This document shows positions 282 through 25,970 of a DNA stretch of 33,001 nucleotides, one piece after another (position 1 is the first letter of the stretch; every line of letters begins with the position of its first letter). The translations under genes were made by a program, and so were the position numbers. The DNA lies in the NCBI GenBank assembly GCA_012523075.1, contig JAAYJF010000025.1:1-33001 (forward strand), written 5' to 3'. This DNA is from Clostridiales bacterium. GTDB lineage: Bacteria > Bacillota > Clostridia > Ch29. Under the pieces are notes generated by a model. That model was not told the origin of the DNA. It saw only the letters and a program-made list of their open reading frames with translations, and did no database searches.

Positions 282-773
282 TTAGTATTTCTTCAGTATC
301 TCGGGTATCCTGTCGGGAGTTAATCTACCATATACATCGTCATCAATCATCATAACCGGGGCCAGTCCGCAGCATCCCAAGCACCGGGTAGCCTCTAGCG
401 TAAATTTTAAATCTTCGGTTGTCTGTCCTACATCAATACCCAATTCCTCTTTTATTTTTTCAAGAATGACCTGCGAGCCTCTTACATAACAGGCAGTACC
501 CATACACAGTCCTATTGTGTGATCGCCCTTCGGCTCCAAATAAAACTGTGCGTAAAACGTAACTATTCCGAAGATCTTCTGCAAGGGTACATCCAAGCCC
601 TCGGCTATGAATCTTTGTACCTCCAGGGGTAAATAGCCGAATATGTCCTGGGCTTTCTGCAGGACGGGTATAAGAGCACCTTTCTTGTCCCTGTACTCTT
701 CAATCACCTCCCGGAGCCTTTCAAAGTTTTCCGGTATGTCCACTGTATCCCGCCGGACATCTTTTACCGTCAT
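282..773 (-). CDS. hndA: NuoE/HndA-family [2Fe-2S] subunit (NAD(P)-linked hydrogenase or formate dehydrogenase)
   Basis: Translation MTVKDVRRDTVDIPENFERLREVIEEYRDKKGALIPVLQKAQDIFGYLP...CMGTACYVRGSQ...TRCLGCCGLAPVMMI is typical of NuoE-family proteins. Start at 773 preferred over 788 because GGGAGG lies just upstream. Confidence 0.93.
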   Translation of the reverse strand: MTVKDVRRDTVDIPENFERLREVIEEYRDKKGALIPVLQKAQDIFGYLPLEVQRFIAEGLDVPLQKIFGIVTFYAQFYLEPKGDHTIGLCMGTACYVRGSQVILEKIKEELGIDVGQTTEDLKFTLEATRCLGCCGLAPVMMIDDDVYGRLTPDRIPEILKKY

Positions 774-933
774 TGGTCTCCCTCCCATTTTTTGTTGTAT
801 AATTATCTATCTTTAGGTTAATATTTTAACACAATTTTCTTAAGTAATAAATGTTTTTATTTAATATTTATTTTCCTTTGTTATCCTTTGGTTCAAAATA
901 TAAATAATAGAGTATAAATTTAGCATCTAATGT

Positions 934-972
934 TAAAAAAACAAAGCCGTCCCATGGAAATACGGGAGCGGT
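934..972 (-). terminator. Intrinsic terminator downstream of the second riboswitch-like leader
   Basis: Minus strand reads CCGCTCCC-GTATTTCCAT-GGGACGG-CTTTGTTTTTTT: GC-rich stem with one bulge, then a T-run. The plus strand also ends in TTTTTT, so it may act in both directions. Confidence 0.75.
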
Positions 973-990
973 TTTTTACGTAACGCTCTG

Positions 991-1092
991 CTCCTCTTCT
1001 TTCCACGCCGGGAGGCATATCCGTTTCCAGATATACCCTATCGGTTTGAAAGCCCTGGCCAATGCTTTAGGCTCAAAAACTCGAAGAGAATC
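991..1092 (-). ncRNA. Moco/Tuco-riboswitch-like structured leader (copy 2, upstream of hndAB)
   Basis: Minus strand CTCTTCGAG...CAAACCGATAGGGTATATCTGGAAACGGATATGCCTCCCGGCGTGGAAAGAAGAG. Outer stem CTCTTC/GAAGAG; inner hairpin ATATC/GATAT with TGGAAACG loop. Near-identical conserved core at 14037-14128, with compensatory changes in the stem. Confidence 0.72.
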
Positions 1093-1108
1093 ATTATTAT
1101 TTGATATT

Positions 1109-1137
1109 ATTATAACAAAACATAAACTGAAAGGCAA
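1109..1137 (-). promoter_or_regulatory. Sigma-A-type promoter for the riboswitch-hndAB unit
   Basis: Minus strand TTGCCT - 17 nt - TATAAT, ending ~20 nt before the riboswitch-like element. Confidence 0.6.
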
Positions 1138-2439: not shown

Positions 2440-3462
2440 TCACTGGTCCAAACGGCCGGCCCGTACCATTATTAGCTCCCCGGCAATGCTTATGGCTATC
2501 TCAGCGGGGGTCTCTGCCTTTATCGGGATACCTATTGGCGTGAATATCCGTTCAAGGGCCTTCTTCGGTATACCGGCTTCCAGCAGCTTGGCGTTAGTGC
2601 TGGCAATTTTTTGCCTACTTCCTATCACGCCTATATAGCGGGCATCGGTGCGTAGCACCTGCTCTTGCACAACAAGGTCGTAGTTATGCCCCCGGGTTGC
2701 AACGACAACATAGTCGTTTCCTGTAATGCCAACGCTTTCTGCCACCCTCTCAAAGTCACCCACCAGCACTTCTTCCGCCATGGGGAACAGCTTTTTGTTC
2801 GCAAACTCTTCGCGGTCGTCCACAACTGTACATCTAAACCCTATATGGGCCAAAACAGGAACCAGCTCCTGGGCTATATGACCACCGCCGAATATAATCA
2901 CCTTACCCGCCCGAACAAGGGGCTCGCTGTAGTATTTTCTTCCGCCTGCGTTTATTTGCAGGCTGCGGCTTTTCAACATAGGCTTTAGTTCAGCCTCCGT
3001 CAATTCCAGGCCGGCCAGCCCGCTACTCTTGCTGTAAATCCCCATACTCCACGCCGTTTCATCGGTGATATCGGTTATTATCCACGAGTCCTCGTCATTG
3101 TCAAGCAGCGTAAGGATACGTTCCACTAGGGACAAAAAACTCCAGTCATCGGCGGATATAAACTGGTAATACACCACCGCATCGCCGCCACAAATCATGC
3201 CCAAATCCCCGACCTGCTTTTGTACTAGCTTATACCCCCTTGTATAGGACCTCTTATCTTTAAGTATCTCTCCCGCAAGCTGCACGGCCTGGTACTCTAT
3301 GGCCCCGCCGCCTATGGTACCGTACAGACGACCTTTTTTATTCACCAGCATTCTTGCTCCGGCCCCACGGGGCGTTGACCCTGAGCTTGCAATGACGGTT
3401 GCAAGTACGCTATCATCTCCATCCAGCATACACTGCTTTAGGGCCTTGAAAAGTCCTTTCAC
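2440..3462 (-). CDS. XdhC/CoxI family protein (molybdenum hydroxylase maturation)
   Basis: ATVIASSGSTPRGAGARMLV...GGGAIEY...VIIFGGGHIAQELVPVLAHIGFRCTVVDDREEFA...GVIGSRQK: XdhC N-domain plus Rossmann C-domain. GTG at 3462 follows AAGGAGG with 9-nt spacing; the ORF track's 3483 start is also possible. Confidence 0.93.
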   Translation of the reverse strand: MKGLFKALKQCMLDGDDSVLATVIASSGSTPRGAGARMLVNKKGRLYGTIGGGAIEYQAVQLAGEILKDKRSYTRGYKLVQKQVGDLGMICGGDAVVYYQFISADDWSFLSLVERILTLLDNDEDSWIITDITDETAWSMGIYSKSSGLAGLELTEAELKPMLKSRSLQINAGGRKYYSEPLVRAGKVIIFGGGHIAQELVPVLAHIGFRCTVVDDREEFANKKLFPMAEEVLVGDFERVAESVGITGNDYVVVATRGHNYDLVVQEQVLRTDARYIGVIGSRQKIASTNAKLLEAGIPKKALERIFTPIGIPIKAETPAEIAISIAGELIMVRAGRLDQ

Positions 3463-3479
3463 TCCGGCATACCTCCTTT

Positions 3480-4439
3480 TCACTTAGCCTCTTTTTGATA
3501 ACGATAAAAAAACTTATGGAAGTTAAGCTCACTAAAATAAACCACTTCCTGCTTAAACCGGTGATATGCCTCAAGCAGCTCTTTAGCCTCTTTAGTGAGG
3601 TTGGAACCACCCCCGTAAGCACCGCCTGAGCGGCTGTCCAAAAGCGGAAAAGCAAGCTGGCTTTCCGCAACCTTTATAAGTTTCCACCCATGGCTGTAGG
3701 AGATACCCATGCTGTAGCAAGCCTGGGTCAGCGAACCGGTTCGGGCAACCTGCTGCAGCAGGGCTGCGGTCTTGTCATCGAAGAAGGTTTCTTTACGGTG
3801 CAGGCTGACCTTTACAGAACATTCCACCGGCTTTTTCAATGCCAAGCTCTTTGCATAACTTTGCAGAAGCTGGTAGTCCTCCGGCCTGTCAGCATCAATG
3901 GTCAGTCCCATATCCGGGAGTTCTATTACATCCTTTGCACCGGCAAAGGCCCGAATAGCTCCCTTTAGACCTTCCTCGCCTTTATAGGAAACAAGCTGAG
4001 GTATTACATTGCTTTTGATAAGGACGGGGTGTCCTTTCTTACCGTTATGCGCAGGAATCAGGATACTGCAGCCGCTGTAGTCCATGTACCCCATCATTGT
4101 AAACAGGCTGTTACGGGAAAAGAGGGGCACGTCACCGGGCAAAAAGAACACGCGGTCGGCCTTTCTGTGAATAAGCTTAAGTCCCATGCACGCAGAATGG
4201 TACATGTCGGTACTGGCATAGTTTTTGTTATACACGAAAACCACGTTAAGCCCGGATAGGTGTTCGCGTAGTTTTTCGGCATTCTTGCCTATAACAACCA
4301 CCACCGGCGAAACTCCCGCCGACTTAAGGGCCGATACCGCCGTCTTAATTACAGTTGAACCTGAGAGCTTCAGCATCGGTTTAAAGGACTTCATCCTTGA
4401 AGACAATCCGGCTGCCACCACCACCGCTCCGGTTTTCAT
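3480..4439 (-). CDS. MobA/MocA-like NTP transferase fused to ModE/LysR-type HTH domain (DVU_1551-like)
   Basis: MKTGAVVVAAGLSSRMKSFKPMLKLSGSTVI...FLPGDVPLFS (nucleotidyltransferase), then ALLQQVARTGSLTQACYSMGISYSHGWKLIKVAESQLAFPLLDSRSGGAYGGGSNLTKEAKELLEAY (ModE-type HTH). Confidence 0.9.
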   Translation of the reverse strand: MKTGAVVVAAGLSSRMKSFKPMLKLSGSTVIKTAVSALKSAGVSPVVVVIGKNAEKLREHLSGLNVVFVYNKNYASTDMYHSACMGLKLIHRKADRVFFLPGDVPLFSRNSLFTMMGYMDYSGCSILIPAHNGKKGHPVLIKSNVIPQLVSYKGEEGLKGAIRAFAGAKDVIELPDMGLTIDADRPEDYQLLQSYAKSLALKKPVECSVKVSLHRKETFFDDKTAALLQQVARTGSLTQACYSMGISYSHGWKLIKVAESQLAFPLLDSRSGGAYGGGSNLTKEAKELLEAYHRFKQEVVYFSELNFHKFFYRYQKEAK

Positions 4440-4499
4440 ACCATTACCCCCTTGTTTGCTGCTAACCATTGGTGCGTTCCCACCTTTCAAAGCAAAAAC

Positions 4500-4814
4500 T
4501 TATCGTAGACGGTAGGAACAGCAATAATCCGCAACGCCTTCGATTATTAGTTTGAAACTGGAATTGGCAGGCACAACAAAGCTGTCGCCTTCCTTAAAGA
4601 GCGTATACTCTTTCTCTCCCCGGCGCATTATCTTCATCTCTCCGCCCAGCACCTCCATTAGTTCCTCGCTGCCTGTATTGAACTCGTATTCCCCCGGCAA
4701 AAATATGCCAAGAGTCTTTCTTTCACCGCCCTCAGTGAAGATTGTTCTGCTGGTTACCCTGCCGTCAAAGTAAATGTTTGCCTTCTTGACTATTCTCGCA
4801 TTTTTAAATTCCAT
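4500..4814 (-). CDS. ppnP: Pyrimidine/purine nucleoside phosphorylase-like cupin (PpnP / DUF1255)
   Basis: [63 protein letters not shown]...[24 protein letters not shown] matches the PpnP/YaiE pattern (GEYxFxTxxxExMxVxxG...FxVPxxSxFxLxxxxxxxYxCxY). Confidence 0.85.
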
Positions 4815-4853
4815 GGTTTTTCCTCCCCGCAAAATATTTAAATAAGTCCAACG

Positions 4854-6116
4854 CTATCGCCGTTCTATGTAAATACGCCTCTTGGCCGTGCCGGTACAGG
4901 GGCTGACCCTGGCGTAACATACCTGTAAACTCACCCCGCGGGCAATACTTTTATTTAAGTATCCCAAAAACCTGTCACGGTCCATATTATGCGTTGTATC
5001 CACCGTCAGGCTTAATACGTTTCCCCGGTCTGAAATTATAAGCTTTGCACTATAGTTGCGAACTCCGGGAACCGCAAACACTAGCTCATCCAGCCTGTGA
5101 ATGCTTAAATGTCCCGCGCCCTCTATAGGTATGGCGTTGGCATACCGGCCCATGACCTCGTCAAGCCGGGGCAGTATACCTCCGCAGGGGCAGGCCCCTT
5201 CCAGCATCCGTGCCATGTCGCCGGTACGGTAGCGTATGAGCGGCATAGCCTCCCGGGATAGCGTTGTAATAACCACCTCGCCGTACTGCCCAGGAGCGGC
5301 CTGCCTTCCCGACTGCGGGTCCACGACCTCAAACAGCAGGTCGGCATGACGCAGGTGATACCCAAGGCCTGCGCTGCATTGGACACCGCCGCCAAAACCC
5401 GTTTCGGTCATCCCGTAATGGGTAAATACGCGGCACCTCCACCGGTCCTCTATACCCTTTATAATGCTCTCCGGCACATAGTCGGCACTTAGCAGCACGC
5501 TTTTGGGGCGCAAACCTCCATCGGTCCGGGCCATATACATTACCTCGGCGGGTACCCCCACCAGGCAGTCAAACCCTTTGGCCGCATCAATCGCCCTTTG
5601 TACATCCTTCACGTTACCGTGGATATGGGCCTTTACGCCAATCCGTGCCAGTGCTTTTTTAAGCAAATCGCCTATACTGTACTCGGTTGCTCCCGACATC
5701 AAAACAAGGGTTTTCTCACCGCTTTGCGTCATTGTAGACATGCCGCAGGCAAAGAAATCCACAGTTTTTTCCATGTCCCGGCCGGTGAAGAAAATCCTTT
5801 TTGGCCTTCCCGAGCTGCCGGAGGTAAAAAGCGTAACAATACGGGACACCTCCCGCTGGGGCACGCACAGGAAGCTCTCCGGGTGAAGGGCGACATCCTC
5901 CGGCCGGGTGAAGGGAATACTCTGCATATGGTACGGCGTTTCAAGCCCTGAAGTATCAACGTCCCGAAGCCTTTTTGCGTAATAGGCGCAATTATCCCGG
6001 GCGTACTCTATGGTTTGTTTTACCCTTTCCATCTGCCACCTGTTAAGGGTTTCCGCCGTAAGCCGTTCCTTTAAACCGGTACGCTCCGCCACCCATGTCT
6101 CAACCGGTGAGGTCAT
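4854..6116 (-). CDS. AMP-dependent CoA-ligase/adenylate-forming enzyme (DVU_1553-like)
   Basis: VTLFTSGSSGRPKRIFF (AMP-binding motif), THYGMTETGFGGG, LIRYRTGDMARM. Resembles phenylacetate-CoA ligase-like proteins found beside Mop clusters. Confidence 0.85.
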   Translation of the reverse strand: MTSPVETWVAERTGLKERLTAETLNRWQMERVKQTIEYARDNCAYYAKRLRDVDTSGLETPYHMQSIPFTRPEDVALHPESFLCVPQREVSRIVTLFTSGSSGRPKRIFFTGRDMEKTVDFFACGMSTMTQSGEKTLVLMSGATEYSIGDLLKKALARIGVKAHIHGNVKDVQRAIDAAKGFDCLVGVPAEVMYMARTDGGLRPKSVLLSADYVPESIIKGIEDRWRCRVFTHYGMTETGFGGGVQCSAGLGYHLRHADLLFEVVDPQSGRQAAPGQYGEVVITTLSREAMPLIRYRTGDMARMLEGACPCGGILPRLDEVMGRYANAIPIEGAGHLSIHRLDELVFAVPGVRNYSAKLIISDRGNVLSLTVDTTHNMDRDRFLGYLNKSIARGVSLQVCYARVSPCTGTAKRRIYIERR

Positions 6117-6779
6117 CTATATGCACTCCTTTTTAGCTATAATAAGGCAGTAGCCGCACTTAACCGCTCGCATCTTGCAGCAGTCGGTTTTTAGGTTTGC
6201 GTACAATGCATCTAAACCGTACTCCAAAACCATCTGCCCCCAGGTTGCCCGCAAAAGCCCTGAATAATCTTCGAATAGTTCAACGGAAAAATGGCTGCTC
6301 TCAAGCTCCCTGCACAGGTCTTCCCGGGAGGCTACCCGCCCCAGCAGGCCACAAAGCTGCGCCGGTTCGCCCCGGGCATAGAGGTCCGAGATTATTAAGT
6401 ATCCGCCAGGCTTCAGGATACGGTAGGCTTCATGCAATACCGCGTCAGGGTTTTTCATTTTGGACAGGCTGCACTCAAAAAGCATCCCGTCCATCTCCCG
6501 GTCGCCAAAGGGCATGTGCACGGCATCGCCAAACCGCAGCCGGTCGGACTGCGGGTAAGCCCTTGCCTTGGCCAGTGCCAAAACCTCTTTATCCTTTTCG
6601 ATGCCGTAAACATCCAGGCCGTATTCGTCCGTCCCACGCCTCACGGTGGCACCCAGCCCGCAGCCCACATCCAGCAGCTTCGCACCTTTTTTAAAACTGC
6701 AAAACTCCAGGGCCCTGTCGGTTATGGTAAACCCTCCCGGGCGACAAACCCCGGTGTTGCAGACATCCGCCTTGTTCAT
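6117..6779 (-). CDS. trsM: Class I SAM methyltransferase (TrsM / DVU_1556-like)
   Basis: LLDVGCGLGATVRRGTDEYGLDVYGIEKDKEVLALAKARAYPQSDRLRFGDAVHMPFGDREMDGMLFECSLSKMKNPDAVLHEAYRILKPGGYLIISDL. Start MNKADVCNTGVCRPGG at 6779 gives an ATGA overlap with the upstream radical SAM gene. Confidence 0.85.
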   Translation of the reverse strand: MNKADVCNTGVCRPGGFTITDRALEFCSFKKGAKLLDVGCGLGATVRRGTDEYGLDVYGIEKDKEVLALAKARAYPQSDRLRFGDAVHMPFGDREMDGMLFECSLSKMKNPDAVLHEAYRILKPGGYLIISDLYARGEPAQLCGLLGRVASREDLCRELESSHFSVELFEDYSGLLRATWGQMVLEYGLDALYANLKTDCCKMRAVKCGYCLIIAKKECI

Positions 6780-8092
6780 GACCATTGCTTTTGCCACCTC
6801 GAAAGGTAATAAGAGCAAAAGGGCACAAACCTATCCCTATCGAATACATGGAGGCTGCACCAACGCAAACGCTCTAGGTCAATGTTGCCGGCATCCTGGA
6901 ACGCCATAGCCGTCACGGTAAAGCCATGGGTCTTTACCCGCCGCAGGAAGTACTCCATGCTGTTTATGTCCGACTCTTTACCGCAGCAGCATGACGGATT
7001 ACCCTTACCCTGCGGCTGCCGCTGCCAGCGGCGGGATATAAAGGCCCGGTTTTTATCGGCAGTAGTAGGGCTGCAGCATCCTTCCCCGGCCCGTTCCCGG
7101 TGCAGCAAGGGTACAATATTATCCGGCATCACAACAAAATTACCGTGGAAACCGCACAGGGGATGGTTGCATCGGGATGGAATTATGTTTTTCAGCTTAA
7201 TGAGCCCCCCGGCCTGCTCCTCGATACTAACAAGAAGCTCATCCAGCGTAAACCGCATATAATCTGCGGGCAGCTCTGGTATACGGCCAAGAAAGCTTAC
7301 CGGCTGGAAATGCACGCCTCTCACCATTGGTGACCGGGCTATGGCAAATTTTAGTATATCCCCTATGTTGTGGGTGTTAACCCCGGGAACCAGCGTTGGT
7401 ACAAGGGTTACGCCTATATTGTAATGCGCACAGTTTTCAATGGCCTGTTGCTTTATTTCAAGCAGCCTCCTACCCCGCAGTTTTTGGTATATGGCATCCC
7501 TGGTGCCGTCAAATTGCATGAATACAAAGGATAACCCCGCCCGGGCCAGCTTCTCCAGGTATTCCTCATCCTCCGCCAGGCGTATACCGTTGCTGTTAAG
7601 CTGCACGTACCTGCACCCGGCTTCCTTTGCTGCGGCAACTATCTGTGGCAGGTCGTCCCGCACCGTGGGCTCACCGCCGCTAAGCTGCACCAGGGTTTTG
7701 CCCGGTTTGGCCAATTTGTTTAACCAAAGGCGGATTTGCTCCAACGTCGGGTCGGGGCTGTCCCCATTATCCGCGAAACAAAAACGGCAGTTAAGGTTGC
7801 AGCGGTCGGTCACCTCCAGCAGCGTGCAACAGGTGTCCTGGGCATGGTACGAGCAAAGGCCGCAGTCATTGGGACAATTAGGGTTCCCTTCATCAGCCGT
7901 TTCTCCTGAGTTCTTGGTCCAGTCATCCATATCCATATACCCGCGCCAAATAACGGTGCAAAACTCTCCATGCTCGGGGCATTCCTTCTGCATGTAAACG
8001 CTGCCATTTATTCGCACATAACGGGCGGTTAGCCTCCTAAGGCACTTGGGACATACACTGTAAGTCTTTCGGATAATTTCCCTCTCTACCAT
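6776..8092 (-). CDS. trsS: Radical SAM protein, TrsS-like (Cys form)
   Basis: N-terminal CPKC...CPEHGEFCTVIWRG plus CPNDCGLCSYHAQDTCCTLLEVTDRCNLNCRFCFA (CxxxCxxC radical SAM motif). Cys-rich C-term ending RFVPFCSYYLS. Confidence 0.87.
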   Translation of the reverse strand: MVEREIIRKTYSVCPKCLRRLTARYVRINGSVYMQKECPEHGEFCTVIWRGYMDMDDWTKNSGETADEGNPNCPNDCGLCSYHAQDTCCTLLEVTDRCNLNCRFCFADNGDSPDPTLEQIRLWLNKLAKPGKTLVQLSGGEPTVRDDLPQIVAAAKEAGCRYVQLNSNGIRLAEDEEYLEKLARAGLSFVFMQFDGTRDAIYQKLRGRRLLEIKQQAIENCAHYNIGVTLVPTLVPGVNTHNIGDILKFAIARSPMVRGVHFQPVSFLGRIPELPADYMRFTLDELLVSIEEQAGGLIKLKNIIPSRCNHPLCGFHGNFVVMPDNIVPLLHRERAGEGCCSPTTADKNRAFISRRWQRQPQGKGNPSCCCGKESDINSMEYFLRRVKTHGFTVTAMAFQDAGNIDLERLRWCSLHVFDRDRFVPFCSYYLSRWQKQWS

Positions 8093-8305
8093 TTACTTGT
8101 CCTCCAGTTGCATTTCCACTTCCGCAATCCGGCCCTTTGCCAGGCCCTCGGAGATATAAACCTCGCCGCATTCCGGGCACCTAAGAACATCGGCATGAAA
8201 GCTGTGACCCAGGTACTCGAAATAGGTCTTTTGAGCTTTAAGGTCTACGTTGCACCTGTAACAGGTAAGCGTCCTTTTTTCTTCCATGCCTCTAATCCTC
8301 CTCAA
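8093..8305 (-). CDS. Small CxxC/CxxC putative redox protein (DVU_1557 / CLJU_RS11820-like)
   Basis: 70-aa ORF: CYRCNVDLKAQKTYFEYLGHSFHADVLRCPECGEVYISEGLAKGRIAEVEMQLED, two CxxC knuckles. Overlaps the upstream gene by 14 nt. Confidence 0.8.
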   Translation of the reverse strand: MRRIRGMEEKRTLTCYRCNVDLKAQKTYFEYLGHSFHADVLRCPECGEVYISEGLAKGRIAEVEMQLEDK

Positions 8306-10529
8306 TTTTCATCCGGTGACCGTAGGCGTTTAGCAGTTCAAACCCGTCATCCTTCTTGCGGTATTCCGCCCAGTAGGTCATATTCCCGATCATCAGGTGC
8401 CCGGTATAGGAGTTGGTGCCTTTGTCCACGACCTTCCTGCCGCTCGCTTCGCAGTGTTCCACCACTTTTTCAATATCGGTTTCCAGCAACATTTCATCGC
8501 TGAGCTTTTGCCTAAGCTCCGGGGAAATGTATAGTTTTACCTTGTTTTCCATTTGCTCTTCCTCCGACTTCTCATTCCAGTATTCCTTAAGCAGCCTGCG
8601 TTTAAGCTGTGCTCTGTTGTATCTTCGTTCCGTCAGGGTGGGGGGCTTTCGCTCGGCGTCATTTATGCCAAGTACCACATCCAGTATGTGATAACACTTC
8701 TTTCCCGCCGATGCAAATATGTCCCGGCAGTTGGCACAATAGGCTATATAGGGATGGTCGTTTTGTGCAATTCTTACCTTGACCACTTCACGGGCGAAGG
8801 AGGGGTTGGCGGCCGACACCTGCCCGCCCCAGCTGCAACACCGGGCATATTTCCCCTCATAGGGTAGCCGTTGTAGGCTAAAGCCTGCCCTACCGGCGAT
8901 GTCCCGTACCACCTGGTGGAGCTTCGGCTCGTTTCTGCTGGTACAGGGGTCAAAAACCGAAACGGTTTCACCGTATGCCGCCCCGGCCGGGGTAATCCCC
9001 AGTTCCGATACCAGGTTGTAAAGGAAAACGCCCCGCACCTCGGGTAAGTATTTCCCGAACATTTCATAGCAGGTGGAACAGGCGAAGACCGCGATTGGCT
9101 TCCCGAGGGAAACCCAGTCCCTTCGCAGCCTTTCTATTACCTCATTGTGAATGGGCCCTTCCCCCGCCCATTCGGCAGGAGCACCGCAACAGCCAAGCAT
9201 CATGGCGGTATCAGGATAGTGTGTTTTTAGCAGCCGATAGCTTTCGATGACATACCGCGGGTCGGAGGCACCCAGTTGGCAGCCCGGGAAAAATACGTAC
9301 CTGCTTTCGGTGTACCCCCCCGGCAGCCTGCAAAGTGCCGCCCTATAGCTGTTTGTAAACTCCATGTCCCTAAGCCAGAAGTCATGGAAGGCCCAGGGCA
9401 TGGCACCCTTTTGGCGCATGGCGCGGTGGCTTTGAAGCAGCAAGTCGCCGGTGTCGATACCCTGGGGACAAACCTCTTTACACAGGCCACACTGGTTACA
9501 GGTGGATATTAGGCGCGTTGCCACGGTACCGTCCCCGTCCAGCGTACCGGGATGAACGGTAATCTCAACCTCTTCCCCTATACGCTTGGGAAACTTGCCG
9601 TAGTAGCGCATCAAATCACAGTGACGGATGCAGGCGTCACAGGCGCATAAAAGGCAGCGCTTGGCTTCGTTCACCGCGTGGTCCTGCGTAAAGGGTTCTC
9701 CCTCATCGGGCAGCACCTGCTCCACGGGAGTAATAAAATCGGGTTTAAGCTTTATTTTGGTTCCTCTCTGCTCCAGGGGCTGGTTCATGCCACCGGTCTT
9801 TATATACCGTTCTATGGCCCTTGTCACATTAAGGCCGTCGGCTATGGCCTCTATTATGTTCCTGCCGCACAGCTCTCCGCCAAGGAAAACGCCGGGCCTT
9901 GTACTGGCAAAGGCACCGCTTTGGTCCCTTTTCAGGCCGAAATCGTCGCCCCCTTTGCCGGTGGCGACGTACACGGCATGAAAGTCCAGCTCGTCAAGGC
10001 TTTTGACTTCGGTATTAAGAAGCAGCGTATACTCTTCATACATGAACTGCCGCTCAATTTCAGCCAGGAAAAGCTCCGGGGGCAGTAAGTCCCACAAATG
10101 CCCGCCTATCCTGTCCGACTTTTCGAAGACAGTGACGTCATACTTTTTGGATGCAAGGCGTAGGGCACAGCCAAGCCCGCTAATGCCTGCCCCTATTACC
10201 GCTATCCTCTTGTTTTTAGGAGGCAGGTTGTAACTGTTTGGGTTAAGATTACGGGCATAATCTATGGCCGACTTTTCAAGAAGTCTCATGTCAACGGCCT
10301 GGTCCTTAAAACGCCTGGGACACACGTCTTTACAGGGCTGGTGGCAAATCTGCACTACTATGCCGGGAAACCCGACCGCGTTCAGGTAGGTCCTGTAAGC
10401 AGCATTAAAAGCACGTCGCTGTAACTTGGGGATAAAGTCCCGGATGTCCAGCCCGAAGGGACAGGCAGCGGTGCAAAAAGCCGGTTCGTTCTGTAAACAG
10501 GTTTTTATTTTCTCTTTAAACTTTTCCAT
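8292..10529 (-). CDS. Pyridine nucleotide-disulfide oxidoreductase / Fe-S dicluster-binding CCG-domain fusion protein (DVU_1558-like)
   Basis: CTAACPFGLDIRDFIPKLQ, CHQPCKDVCPRRFK, FAD motif IAVIGAGISGLGCALRLA, ferredoxin motif CNQCGLCKEVCPQGIDTG, CCG motifs MLGCCGAPAEW and ARCCSWGG. C-terminal MENKVKLYISPELRQKL...TYWAEYRKKDDGFELLNAYGHRMKI. Confidence 0.88.
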   Translation of the reverse strand: MEKFKEKIKTCLQNEPAFCTAACPFGLDIRDFIPKLQRRAFNAAYRTYLNAVGFPGIVVQICHQPCKDVCPRRFKDQAVDMRLLEKSAIDYARNLNPNSYNLPPKNKRIAVIGAGISGLGCALRLASKKYDVTVFEKSDRIGGHLWDLLPPELFLAEIERQFMYEEYTLLLNTEVKSLDELDFHAVYVATGKGGDDFGLKRDQSGAFASTRPGVFLGGELCGRNIIEAIADGLNVTRAIERYIKTGGMNQPLEQRGTKIKLKPDFITPVEQVLPDEGEPFTQDHAVNEAKRCLLCACDACIRHCDLMRYYGKFPKRIGEEVEITVHPGTLDGDGTVATRLISTCNQCGLCKEVCPQGIDTGDLLLQSHRAMRQKGAMPWAFHDFWLRDMEFTNSYRAALCRLPGGYTESRYVFFPGCQLGASDPRYVIESYRLLKTHYPDTAMMLGCCGAPAEWAGEGPIHNEVIERLRRDWVSLGKPIAVFACSTCYEMFGKYLPEVRGVFLYNLVSELGITPAGAAYGETVSVFDPCTSRNEPKLHQVVRDIAGRAGFSLQRLPYEGKYARCCSWGGQVSAANPSFAREVVKVRIAQNDHPYIAYCANCRDIFASAGKKCYHILDVVLGINDAERKPPTLTERRYNRAQLKRRLLKEYWNEKSEEEQMENKVKLYISPELRQKLSDEMLLETDIEKVVEHCEASGRKVVDKGTNSYTGHLMIGNMTYWAEYRKKDDGFELLNAYGHRMKIEED

Positions 10530-10531
10530 TA

Positions 10532-13459
10532 CTAGAAGAATCTCTCGCCGGCCCCGTCACCCAGCGGTATAAAGAAATCGTCCCCTCCGAACTTAACGGG
10601 ATTGGCCTTCATATCTTCAAGCTCCTCGTAAAGGTCGGAACCCAGGAAGTATTTCTTCGGCGGCTCTATTTTTCCGCCGGCATCTATTATATCCAGCCCC
10701 GCCTTTACCTTTTCCGGCGTGGCGGGCATCTCGTAGATTCGCACACCGCAGGCGTTGTATATGGCGTTTAATACCGCCATATGCCCGGAGGACTGGAAAG
10801 CCTCGGAAGCACCCGATGAACCAAAGGGACCCTCCTCGTCCGGCCGCTCGTAATGGATGACGTTTATTTCGTCCGGTATGTCGTTAATATAAGGCACCCC
10901 GGCACCGTACATGTTTGCATGCTTTTCCACATCATCATAGTTTTCTCTAAGGGCAAAACCTATGCTGTGGGCTATACCGCTGTAGGCCTGCCCGTTAACG
11001 GCATCTATATTGCCCACCCTGCCCACATCGTCTACGCAGGTAAAACGAAGGACCTTCGTTTTACCGGTGGCGGTGTCCACCTCCACCTCGGCAAGGTTCA
11101 GGCAGTACGTGAACGCAGGCGTAGGGTCGCCTATACCGGTATTGGGGTCAAGCCGGCACAGCCCGGGTACCGTCGTGGTTTCATAGGTGCCGTAGTACTT
11201 GGTCTCTATACCCTCGGCAACCATCTCCTCGTAGGTACGGTAGCTACCGTCGGGTTTGCGCATGGCGTTCATTAGCTTTTCAGCGGCAATTATCGTGGCA
11301 TTACCACTCATGAAATGGGTACGGCTGGCACCCGACATTCCGCTGTCCGGGCAAATCTTGGTATCGTTTTGTACCAGTCTCACCTTGTCCGGGGTTATAC
11401 CAAGGGGCTTTAAGGCTTCCAGCGTCAGCATCAGGGAACCCACGTCGCCTCCCTGGCCCATGTTCTGGTAGGTGTCGTACTTGATTATCATGTCGTCCGG
11501 CCCCAGTTCAAGGGCTACCGTCGCCTTGTCGGTTCCGCCCTCGGTTACGTTAAAGCCTCCCCAGGAGATGCCAACGCCCCGGCGTTTCTCGGGGGTATCG
11601 GCGGCCTTGGCCTCCGCAACCGCCTTTTCATAAATGGGCCGCATTATTTTCATCATTTCCTCCATCGGGTACTGGCGGAAGGGATAGCTGTTTATGTTGG
11701 TGTCCCCCTCCCGCGCTATGTTTATCCAGCGGAACTCAAAGGGGTCAATTCCCGCCTTCTCGGCCAGCATATCCATAAGTGCCTCGGACAGCGTATAAGC
11801 CTGGGGCGAACCATAGCTGCGGTAAGCGGTACCAAAGTTGTGGTTTGTGTTGGCTACACGGGCAAGGCCGGCCACATTGGGCACGTTATAGGGGAAGAAT
11901 GCAAACCGGACCAGTTTTGTCATTTTATCGTCCCCGCCCCACGAATAGGCACCATGGTCCATACCAAACTCGAACTCGGCGGCGGTTATCTTCCCGTTCT
12001 CGTCACAGGCCACCCGGCCGTTGGAATGACAGGGACTGCGTTTTCCAGAGAAATGCTGGTGCTCCTCATAACTCATGGACAGGGCCACCGGCTTTTTGGT
12101 AACTACCGCGGCGGCACCGGCAAGGCAAAGGTCTCCGGCATTGGTGGACCAGCCGAAACTTGCCCCGGTAGTGTTCATTACTATACGCAGTTTATCCTTG
12201 GGTACACCAAGGGAATCGCCTATGCGTCCCTTTGATGAGTAAACGCCCTGGGACTTACACAGGAAGGTTAGGTTGTCATCCTCGTCAAAAAAGGCTTGAA
12301 CGGTGGTACCCTCAACCGACAAGTGGGGCTGGCGGCTTGAATAAAAGCTGCCGGATACGCTGTAGGCAGAATTGTCAATCACTTCCTGGACCTTGGAGGG
12401 CTCCTCCAGGCCCACGCCCTTAAGTACCGGCTGCTTGGAGAATATATTGGGCGTGTCCTCATGGATACGCATGGCATCCGGCATAACGGCGTCCAGGTAA
12501 CTTAAGTATTCCGGAAGCTTTTCAATCTCCACCTTCACCTTTGCCGCGGCCTCCCGGGCATGGTTCTTTGTGTCTGCAACAACCAGGGCCACCACGTCGC
12601 CGTAGCGGTATATCTTGTCCTCCGCCAATACTCGCCTGCTGGGAACCATGACCGTTGTGCGCTCGTGGAACTGGCCCTCCGCCATTACGTTCGTTCCCCC
12701 GGCTTCTTTTAATTCCTTGTATGTAATGACCTTCACAACCCCCGGCATATTTTCCGCTTCGGAGGTGTCTATCTTAAGTATTTTTGCATGATGGGCAATC
12801 TTTGGCTGAACTACCGCCACATGCAACGTATCCTTGGGCATCTTAAGTGCCTGGTCCTCTCCATAATCGGCAAGGCCGCAGACCTTTGCTACGGCCGTCG
12901 GCCGTACCAGGGGCTTGCCGTAATACTCCTTGTCTTCAGGAAGCTTAAAAGTAATATCTTCAATGGTGGCTTCCCCGCGGATAACCTTCGCCGCGTCCAT
13001 AACCGCATCCACTATTTGCTTGTACCCAGTGCAGCGGCAAACGTTGCGGTGTTTCTGGAACCAATCCCTTACCTCCTGACGGGTGGGGTTATTGTTTTCC
13101 TTAAGAAGGGCGTATGCCGAAACGATGAAGCCCGGCGTACAAAAACCGCACTGAACCGCGCCGTTGTTCATAAAGGCTACCTGTAGCGGGTGCAGGTTAT
13201 TAGGCGTACCTATGCCCTCGATGGTGATAACCTTGCTATACTCCTTGACCGAGCCAATCTTTCTCGTGCAGGAGCGGATAACCTTCCCGTCAAGTATTAC
13301 CGAGCATGCCCCGCACACCCCCGTACCGCAGCCCACCTTAACACCCGTCAGCCCAAGGCGGCGCAGTACTTCGGCCAGCGTATCCTTTTCCGGGTCACAG
13401 GCAAACATACGGTTTACGCCGTTTATGTTAAGCCACATTTTTTTAAGTTTCATTTTCAT
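10532..13459 (-). CDS. mop: Molybdopterin-dependent aldehyde oxidoreductase (Mop type, xanthine oxidase family, with N-terminal 2x[2Fe-2S] domain)
   Basis: 975 aa. N-term VKVGCGTGVCGACSVILDGK and VQCGFCTPGFIVSAYALL...RNVCRCTGYKQIVDAV. Mo domain MGQGGDVGSLMLTLEAL and catalytic-region GPFGSSGASEAFQSSGH. Confidence 0.95.
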   Translation of the reverse strand: MKMKLKKMWLNINGVNRMFACDPEKDTLAEVLRRLGLTGVKVGCGTGVCGACSVILDGKVIRSCTRKIGSVKEYSKVITIEGIGTPNNLHPLQVAFMNNGAVQCGFCTPGFIVSAYALLKENNNPTRQEVRDWFQKHRNVCRCTGYKQIVDAVMDAAKVIRGEATIEDITFKLPEDKEYYGKPLVRPTAVAKVCGLADYGEDQALKMPKDTLHVAVVQPKIAHHAKILKIDTSEAENMPGVVKVITYKELKEAGGTNVMAEGQFHERTTVMVPSRRVLAEDKIYRYGDVVALVVADTKNHAREAAAKVKVEIEKLPEYLSYLDAVMPDAMRIHEDTPNIFSKQPVLKGVGLEEPSKVQEVIDNSAYSVSGSFYSSRQPHLSVEGTTVQAFFDEDDNLTFLCKSQGVYSSKGRIGDSLGVPKDKLRIVMNTTGASFGWSTNAGDLCLAGAAAVVTKKPVALSMSYEEHQHFSGKRSPCHSNGRVACDENGKITAAEFEFGMDHGAYSWGGDDKMTKLVRFAFFPYNVPNVAGLARVANTNHNFGTAYRSYGSPQAYTLSEALMDMLAEKAGIDPFEFRWINIAREGDTNINSYPFRQYPMEEMMKIMRPIYEKAVAEAKAADTPEKRRGVGISWGGFNVTEGGTDKATVALELGPDDMIIKYDTYQNMGQGGDVGSLMLTLEALKPLGITPDKVRLVQNDTKICPDSGMSGASRTHFMSGNATIIAAEKLMNAMRKPDGSYRTYEEMVAEGIETKYYGTYETTTVPGLCRLDPNTGIGDPTPAFTYCLNLAEVEVDTATGKTKVLRFTCVDDVGRVGNIDAVNGQAYSGIAHSIGFALRENYDDVEKHANMYGAGVPYINDIPDEINVIHYERPDEEGPFGSSGASEAFQSSGHMAVLNAIYNACGVRIYEMPATPEKVKAGLDIIDAGGKIEPPKKYFLGSDLYEELEDMKANPVKFGGDDFFIPLGDGAGERFF

Positions 13460-13477: not shown

Positions 13478-13885
13478 TTAGTCAAACCCAAGTCCGTAAT
13501 CGGCCAGAATGGATTTTGCCTGCAGAAACGTTGCCTCTATAAGTGCAGGACACCTTACCGTTTGGTTTGCCACATCACCCCCGATTATCTCTTTGCAGCT
13601 AATGCCCCCGTACTTCTTGCCGTAAGTTGCCTTAAACCATTCCACTAGTTCCGGAATTAGCTCGGTATTTGCATTCCCGGGGTCAATTATGTTCAGCATA
13701 CAGGCCGCCCCGGTCAAAGCACCGCAGGTCAACCCGCTTTGGACCCCCCGGCAAAGCGCGCTTGCTACCTCAACAAGCTGCTTGTTTTCCTGGCCCCTAG
13801 TCTCCAGGCCCAGTTGTACTAATGCGCTGGCACAGCATTTGCCTTCCCGTAATATTTGATGCAGCCTTACAACATCACCCCGTAT
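13478..13885 (-). CDS. C-GCAxxG-C-C family protein (DVU_1555-like); start codon uncertain, probable non-canonical ATA
   Basis: ORF track starts at an internal TTG (13732). The same frame stays open to a TAA at 13904-13906 and encodes IRGDVVRLHQILREGKCCASALVQLGLETRGQENKQLVEVASALCRGVQSG ahead of LTCGALTGAACML. AGGGGGG lies 7 nt before ATA at 13883-13885. Confidence 0.75.
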   Translation of the reverse strand: MRGDVVRLHQILREGKCCASALVQLGLETRGQENKQLVEVASALCRGVQSGLTCGALTGAACMLNIIDPGNANTELIPELVEWFKATYGKKYGGISCKEIIGGDVANQTVRCPALIEATFLQAKSILADYGLGFD

Positions 13886-13924
13886 ATGACAGCCCCCCTT
13901 TTTTTAAATATTTTACTTTCCGAG

Positions 13925-13962
13925 AAAACAAAAATACCGGCAACAAATCCTGTTCCCGGCAT
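13925..13962 (-). terminator. Intrinsic terminator between riboswitch-like leader copy 1 and the Mop operon
   Basis: Minus strand ATGCCGGGAACA-GGATT-TGTTGCCGGTAT-TTTTGTTTT: 11 of 12 pairs (one G-U) with a T-rich tail. Confidence 0.75.
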
Positions 13963-14036
13963 AAGAATAGCTACGGACAAATTAAGCTAAACAAAAAGTT
14001 TAGCCCCATGTGAAAAATTACTGCATCCATCCAAAC

Positions 14037-14128
14037 TACTTCTTTCCACACCGGGAGGCATAACCGTTTCCAGTTATACCCTATCGGTCTGAATTCATAG
14101 TCTCCCTTAGAATTACAGACTCGAAGCA
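14037..14128 (-). ncRNA. Moco/Tuco-riboswitch-like structured leader (copy 1, upstream of the Mop operon)
   Basis: Minus strand TGCTTCGAGTCTGTAATTCTAAGGGAGACTATGAATTCAGACCGATAGGGTATAACTGGAAACGGTTATGCCTCCCGGTGTGGAAAGAAGTA. Outer stem TGCTTC/GAAGTA; P2-like GTCTG(T)AATTC/GAATTCAGAC; inner hairpin ATAAC/GTTAT. Confidence 0.75.
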
Positions 14129-14180
14129 TTTATGGCAGTTTTTATTCAGTTTTAGTATATTATTAGAATTTTCTGCTTAC

Positions 14181-14209
14181 ATTTTAATATATCTAAAAAG
14201 AATAATCAA
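14181..14209 (-). promoter_or_regulatory. Candidate promoter for the Mop operon leader
   Basis: Minus strand TTGATT - 17 nt - TAAAAT in the AT-rich intergenic region upstream of leader copy 1. Confidence 0.35.
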
Positions 14210-25849: not shown

Positions 25850-25970
25850 CATCCGCTTATCTGCCAGAACTCACCGTTCTGCTGGATTTGGCACCTTTCA
25901 GACTTCCATGTCTGGTGGTTGCCGAGGCTTCTTTGGGCCAGGTCCCTCAGCCTGCTCTCGATAGAAATTC
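25850..25970 (-). ncRNA. SAM-I riboswitch (S-box leader) upstream of metNIQ
   Basis: Minus strand CTATCGAGAGCAGGCTGAGGGACCTGGCCCAAAGAAGCCTCGGCAACCACC...GAAAGGTGCCAAATCCAGCAG...GATAAG: canonical S-box signature. Confidence 0.97.

Follow-up and report, generated by a model that had tools for sequence, protein, structure and literature searches.

P3-less molybdenum/tungsten riboswitches at a clostridial Mop locus and a putative ON-type arrangement in front of AOR genes

The Mop locus and its two RNA copies

The window analyzed here, a stretch of 33,001 nucleotides from a Clostridiales bacterium, is an entire contig of an assembly that amounts to 2.04 Mb in 185 contigs and is 99.7% complete. The features of interest are as follows.

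282-788, minus strand: NuoE-like gene, the first after copy 2, at the contig edge (family match; operon read from relatives)
935-971, minus strand: terminator of copy 2 (hairpin of -10.8 kcal/mol), the 5' arm and loop of which can pair with the aptamer 3' half
980-1098, minus strand: copy 2, P3-less Moco/Tuco aptamer (Rfam, 75.9 bits, E 7.6e-17)
1109-1137, minus strand: promoter TTGCCT-17-TATAAT close ahead of copy 2 (10 of 12 positions match the consensus, with TG preceding the second hexamer)
2440-10529, minus strand: remaining Mop maturation cluster (NCBIfam matches)
10532-13459, minus strand: Mop-type molybdopterin-dependent aldehyde oxidoreductase (NF045668, 1175 bits, above cut-off)
13478-13873, minus strand: DVU_1555-family C-GCAxxG-C-C protein, with which the Mop operon begins (NF045669, 114 bits, above cut-off)
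13925-13962, minus strand: intrinsic terminator hairpin with a U-rich tract between copy 1 and the operon (-14.5 kcal/mol; kept in all aligned relatives)
13954-13982, minus strand: 3' partner of the predicted antiterminator, ATTTGTCCGTAGCTATTCTTATGCCGGGA, pairing with CTCCCGGTGTGGAAAGAAGTAGTTTGGATGGAT of the aptamer 3' half
14023-14138, minus strand: copy 1, P3-less Moco/Tuco (RF01055) aptamer (Rfam, 61.3 bits, E 1.5e-12; covariation)
14181-14209, minus strand: sigma-70-like promoter TTGATT-17-TAAAAT upstream of copy 1 (weak evidence, 9 of 12 positions matching the consensus)

An earlier note, made from the sequence of this DNA, placed the gene following copy 1 in a Mo-hydroxylase operon, and the Mop-type match to NF045668 agrees with that placement. 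The maturation cluster encodes a dicluster oxidoreductase, a TrsS radical SAM protein, a DVU_1556 methyltransferase, a DVU_1553 CoA-ligase-like protein, a MocA-like NTP transferase fused to a ModE-type domain (3480-4490), and an XdhC-like protein. No in-frame ATG, GTG or TTG was found near the expected start of the DVU_1555-family gene (13870-13910, minus strand); the start region reads GGGGTGAT, followed by an out-of-frame ATG TTG TAA, with CTG or GTT/GTA in frame, and either an unusual start codon or a one-base assembly error is to be assumed. The promoter match of copy 2 is good and ends 11 bases before the aptamer. In relatives, the operon behind copy 2 comprises the NuoE-like gene, then NuoF and a [FeFe] hydrogenase of group A6. 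In genome G001, another NuoE/NuoF set comes next, together with a frame that looks like a selenocysteine formate dehydrogenase and has one in-frame TGA; this frame gave no family match at the threshold used and its identity is our interpretation. Elsewhere in the window, an ordinary SAM-I riboswitch (RF00162, 74.7 bits; 25854-25967, minus strand) precedes the MetN/MetI/MetQ methionine transporter (25836-23264).

The earlier note assigned the leader of the Mop operon to the Moco/Tuco class and proposed a scan with the RF01055 covariance model. In that scan both copies were full-length matches well above the gathering score (36 bits), and the element itself belongs to this known class of molybdenum/tungsten riboswitches. 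A match of SdsR to the terminator region (25.9 bits against a threshold of 38 bits) was taken as chance. The interval first delimited for copy 1, 14037-14128, has the two partners of the outer P1 pair as its exact ends, and the full Rfam match is wider (14138-14023). P1 comprises 14128-14123/14042-14037, P2 14120-14110/14096-14087, P4 14081-14071/14066-14056 with a GAAA loop, and P5 14055-14054/14047-14046. Both copies have the RF01055 architecture P1-P2-P4-P5 with a GNRA loop on P4 and its receptor in P2, the receptor bulge being CTAAG...TATG in copy 1 and CTAAA...CAGG in copy 2, and the sequences quoted as common to the two are present when read on the minus strand. The Rfam alignment shows every P3 position deleted in the two copies, and P3 is missing in every one of the 30 RF01055 RNAs of the order (six genomes in our collection). 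The earlier note was right that copy 1 has no clear P3, but this does not single out copy 1, because copy 2 and all relatives in the order are P3-less as well.

Relative to the Moco motif of RF01055, the two copies have P1, P2, P4, P5, the GAAA tetraloop, the conserved junction and the placement before Mo/W genes in common, while they differ in the absence of P3 and in a termination platform instead of the ribosome-binding site within P1 proposed for E. coli moaA. Termination has been reported for the E. coli moaA RNA with TaRTLEt (PMC12121620).

The change from ATAAC/GTTAT in copy 1 to ATATC/GATAT in copy 2 is one A-U to U-A covariation in P4, and that from TGCTTC/GAAGTA to CTCTTC/GAAGAG is located in P1. 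Two sequences alone would be thin evidence of covariation, and the claim that pairing is kept despite sequence change was borne out by 64 related P3-less RNAs aligned on the Rfam-derived structure. Standard pairs occupied 88.1% of the cells (36-48% with the partner slid by 1-3 columns), 25 of the 30 pairs changed on both sides, and double-sided changes were counted in 377 cells against a shuffle mean of 128, none of 500 shuffles being as high. When the window was searched unfiltered with a model derived from the relatives, the two copies were recovered at 102.5 and 94.3 bits, which is no independent proof of them because both sit in the model alignment; the next match scored 12.4 bits, and no third copy was found in the window.

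Expression platforms and their occurrence in relatives

Terminators were called by a strict single-hairpin rule, as an earlier free-form scan had given artefacts for both copies. In copy 1, the segment 13982-13954, which lies in front of and inside the terminator 5' arm, forms the predicted antiterminator with CTCCCGGTGTGGAAAGAAGTAGTTTGGATGGAT at -28.8 kcal/mol (shuffles: mean -14.4, sd 3.5); 2 of 1000 shuffles were as low, a proportion that is somewhat optimistic because the test window was widened from a narrow one to take in P5 after the pairing of copy 1 had been seen. The antiterminator is kept with different bases in the diverged relative G005 (-29.1 kcal/mol, 0 of 1000 shuffles as low), in the leader of ModABC in G002 (-22.9, 9 of 1000) and in the leader of G003 (-22.3, 6 of 1000). 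A weaker one was found in the decayed Mop leader of G002 (-16.7, 84 of 1000). Since the antiterminator on the one hand and P1/P5 and the terminator on the other are mutually exclusive, copy 1 has the layout of a classic ligand-OFF attenuator. The antiterminator of copy 2 (-20.0 kcal/mol, 3 of 1000 shuffles as low) is less clear in relatives (34-135 of 1000). Among OFF leaders in general, no more than 37 of 89 have an antiterminator pairing that is better than shuffles at p<=0.05.

The arrangement in G005 is identical to that of the window. In G001, Mop is absent from the interval that holds the histidine-kinase-like gene, the copy-2 RNA and NuoE. In G003 (L026 1305-494, minus strand), the Mop operon is missing, and a copy-1-like RNA lies before a short ORF, followed by a copy-2-like RNA; the ORF gave no NCBIfam match at E 1e-25, and we interpret it as probably the ModE-like domain of the fusion gene of the window. 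G002 has an intact copy-1-like RNA before ModABC. Its Mop leader (L185, 4070-4185) retains a largely intact downstream part with a decayed aptamer (32 bits with our custom model, no Rfam match), a natural aptamer loss. The placements in G003 and G002 indicate that leaders of the copy-1 type accompany molybdenum-type genes. Three RNAs of relatives (L007, which runs into a contig end, L009 and L012) have A.C instead of G.U as the first P4 pair (ATAAGG...GCCCCCC), a wobble-for-wobble double change beside the junction that may bear on specificity. This pair was not retained as a mark of molybdate control: only three RNAs carry it, two of them before ModA, and a G.U RNA also precedes ModA in G002.

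Five RF01055 copies, all P3-less, were detected in the genome under study. Besides the two in the window, L003 precedes TupA/TupB, L005 precedes a ferredoxin and AOR with an ON-type platform (-33.5 kcal/mol), and L002 lies before an FMN-binding lipoprotein and then a further gene. The relatives of this last gene fall into a molybdopterin-binding-domain group, a label of our own with no confirming family match for the gene. The TupA-like protein scored 244 bits, below the 400-bit cut-off of the family, but has its own riboswitch, and two AOR-family domains were found in the genome. No riboswitch was detected for ModA (contig C36). The presence of both TupA and ModA implies that the cell probably handles both metals. 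More pieces of Mop-family genes are located at contig ends (C36:1-2109 and C147:2-727), and neither contig gave an RF01055 match.

We surveyed 73 Mop-like loci in GTDB species genomes with the covariance model of the relatives. Matches were obtained at 20 loci, of which 18 lie upstream of Mop on the same strand and two (L191 and L200) on the opposite strand. L184 and L185 come from G005 and G002, which were in the count before, as their identical AOR coordinates show; L188 and L185 have a degenerate appearance. P3-less RNAs precede Mop in about 16 other genomes. By inspection, none of the 20 RNAs bears a P3 insertion. Among their hosts are Clostridia, Lachnospiraceae (Clostridium fessum), Maledivibacter halophilus, Candidatus Formimonas warabiya, and Synergistales. 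The remaining loci were for the most part truncated or had no detectable RNA; the arrangement is recurrent, not universal. A regular-expression motif search caught 6 of the 73 loci, some by chance, and missed most of the Mop leaders among the 20 found by the covariance model.

P3 loss, tungsten and the leaders of AOR genes

The earlier note named homologues occurring apart from Mo/W enzymes as counter-evidence. Such a pattern was not seen, as nearly all homologues precede Mo/W transporters, cofactor synthesis genes or enzymes, and the RNAs of the relatives lie before Tup, Mod, Moa, Moe, AOR and hydrogenase/FDH-linked genes. One RNA (L138 201-320) is located directly before a gene for L-glutamate gamma-semialdehyde dehydrogenase, which does not belong to the Mo/W enzymes. 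Another (L161 201-324, in G385) precedes a formate/nitrite transporter gene, with a second RNA approximately 3 kb downstream.

The correlation of P3-less RNAs with tungsten, and the idea of a tungsten-cofactor (Tuco) variant, were put forward by Regulski et al. in 2008 (PMC2408646). We read the P3 status RNA by RNA in a class-level sample of 392 genomes, 54 of which had RF01055. The AOR-family domain PF02730, an imperfect tungsten marker because it also matches E. coli, was present in 39 of 41 genomes with only P3-less RNAs, 1 of 7 with only P3-containing RNAs, and 4 of 6 with both types. The difference between the first two groups was significant (Fisher p = 1.5e-5, for genomes that are related to one another). 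The association repeats the 2008 correlation on new data and supports the Tuco idea as a tendency, not a rule. Three P3-containing RNAs (L080, L083 and L100) were found before TupB/TupC-type genes with TupA matches close by, which weakens the notion that P3 alone reports the metal.

The earlier note inferred that copy 1 could be of the Tuco variant. In favor of this, copy 1 lacks P3, the loss of which tracks AOR-family genes, and the organism has a tungsten-cofactor metabolism, as judged from the TupA-like protein and the AOR domains; on the other side, the controlled gene encodes a Mo-type hydroxylase, not MPT synthesis or a tungsten enzyme, and the genome has ModA beside TupA. The Tuco assignment of copy 1 is thus consistent with the data, not proven. 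To our knowledge, Mop-type molybdopterin aldehyde oxidoreductases are not known to use tungsten. Copy 1 resembles the Tuco variant in the absence of P3 and in a genome with TupA-like and AOR-family genes, but the P3-less RNAs of 2008 were almost only at genes for MPT synthesis or the tungsten cofactor (PMC2408646). Similar exceptions, the sulphite-oxidase-like genes of S. wolfei, are discussed in the same paper (PMC2408646).

All leaders, those of AOR genes and the others, were scored alike: an ON layout was called for a single hairpin with a U-tract that starts within the P1 3' strand at <= -10 kcal/mol, and an OFF layout for a hairpin that starts >=6 nt further on at -7 kcal/mol. The ON layout was found in 13 of 14 AOR leaders and in 4 of 114 others (94 OFF, 16 neither; Fisher p = 1.5e-13, not a strict probability since the leaders are related), and 23 of 840 shuffled AOR leaders passed the ON rule. 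In the single exception among the AOR leaders (L175), the hairpin starts between the ON and the OFF range. As for the four other ON leaders, L028 has an AOR-type aptamer at a distance of approximately 5 kb to an AOR gene, L132 and L133 stand before the operon of an ECF-type transporter, and L176 is a poor RNA match. The ON hairpins are widely different in sequence and have their base in common with P1. Like L132 and L133, the RF01055 RNAs L108 and L112 precede genes for such a transporter (PF09819 component) and a cluster of molybdopterin-binding-domain genes; the transporter might carry the cofactor, its pterin or the metal.

The AOR-linked RNAs (L005, L257 and others) are of the same aptamer class as copy 1, P3-less and found in the same genomes. 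Unlike copy 1, they have a compact, shorter P2, a G-C instead of a C-G pair in P5 (12 of 14 against 1 of 112 other RNAs), often a GCAA or GUAA loop (9 of 14 depart from GAAA, compared with 4 of 112), and the ON-type platform. Rfam identified five RNAs, two below the gathering score, in a held-out set of 40 further AOR upstream regions; four had strong ON hairpins (-15.6 to -25.4) and one a weak hairpin (-6.3), and none of the five had an OFF-only layout. Both arrangements, that before Mop and that before AOR, are carried by Maledivibacter halophilus M1 (L194 and L257).

Proposed switching of copy 1 and its meaning

Altogether, we propose, with a probability of roughly 0.75, that copy 1 is a functional P3-less riboswitch that turns the Mop operon OFF by transcription termination. 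Sequence and folding computation revealed the aptamer, the terminator, the mutually exclusive pairing and the conservation of all these, and we infer ligand binding and the direction of control. When the Mo/W pterin cofactor is scarce, the aptamer 3' half (P5, the junction and the P1 3' strand) would pair approximately 55 nt downstream and take up the terminator 5' arm, so that the polymerase would enter the operon. With the cofactor bound, P1 and P5 would close, the terminator would form and transcription would stop. The OFF reading is supported by the RF01055 matches, the covariation, and the terminator and antiterminator kept in G005, G002 and G003, as well as by the Mop RNAs elsewhere, which are P3-less and nearly all accompanied by a separate terminator.

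The metal sensed by copy 1 is most likely tungsten, at about even odds, and otherwise molybdenum or either of the two. A tungsten-form signal makes sense because the genome has a tungsten-type AOR with a riboswitch of the ON layout; the cell would use AOR with the tungsten cofactor available and Mop without it. This link is supported by the P3-less RNAs tracking AOR-family genes and by the ON-type AOR leaders, including those of the held-out test. Molybdenum sensing would fit too, since the annotation of Mop is that of a molybdenum enzyme and, in relatives, leaders like copy 1 stand before ModABC and a ModE-like gene.

A rather doubtful, though serious, alternative is that copy 1 is an OFF switch that senses the molybdenum cofactor in simple feedback, the absence of P3 being irrelevant to the metal. 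The controlled operon encodes a Mop-type Mo hydroxylase along with MocA-, XdhC- and ModE-like proteins, the orthologous leaders just mentioned belong to molybdenum-related genes, 14 of the 19 genomes that have an RNA at the Mop locus gave a ModA match above the cut-off, and the P3-less A.C-subtype RNAs precede ModA in two relatives; this account is, however, at odds with AOR-family genes in nearly all genomes with only P3-less RNAs and their absence from most of those with only P3-containing RNAs. Control of translation by hiding the ribosome-binding region appears improbable. With P1 enforced, a part of the leader folds onto a G-rich stretch upstream of the first gene, and the best-studied member, that of E. 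coli, was proposed as translational (PMC2408646), but a terminator with a U-tract is conserved between aptamer and gene in every aligned relative, and the antiterminator is much stronger than shuffles. That copy 1 is a functionless, decaying duplicate of copy 2 is highly improbable: the copies have core sequence in common at a distance of 13 kb and the aptamer of the G002 Mop leader is visibly decayed, but every conserved position, the pairing and the own platform of copy 1 are kept in three further genomes.

Returning to copy 1 as an OFF switch, aldehyde oxidation is the reaction of both Mop and AOR. We tentatively suggest, at somewhat less than even odds, that one cofactor signal acts on two opposite switches, OFF before Mop, transporter and synthesis genes and ON in the subtype before AOR, so that the supply of tungsten would swap Mop for AOR. 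Should the tungsten cofactor be what the P3-less RNAs read, Mop would be shut off and AOR turned on in its presence. Alternatively, copy 1 might read Moco or either cofactor, and the cofactor form bound by the AOR subtype might differ from that bound by copy 1. A related thought was expressed for the sulphite-oxidase-like genes of S. wolfei by Regulski et al. (PMC2408646). In the open-access literature, to which our search extended (subscription papers lay outside it), we found neither an ON-type Moco/Tuco riboswitch nor the AOR aptamer subtype with flipped P5 described, nor Mop named as a recurrent target of P3-less RNAs.

The case for sensing of the tungsten cofactor by P3-less RNAs has been correlative since 2008, as the instability of the cofactor precludes binding assays. 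As RNAs of the same class have opposite predicted outputs on Mop and AOR, two enzymes of the same reaction, they offer a clean in vivo test of tungsten sensing, and this long-standing question would become testable in living cells with tungsten and molybdenum varied.
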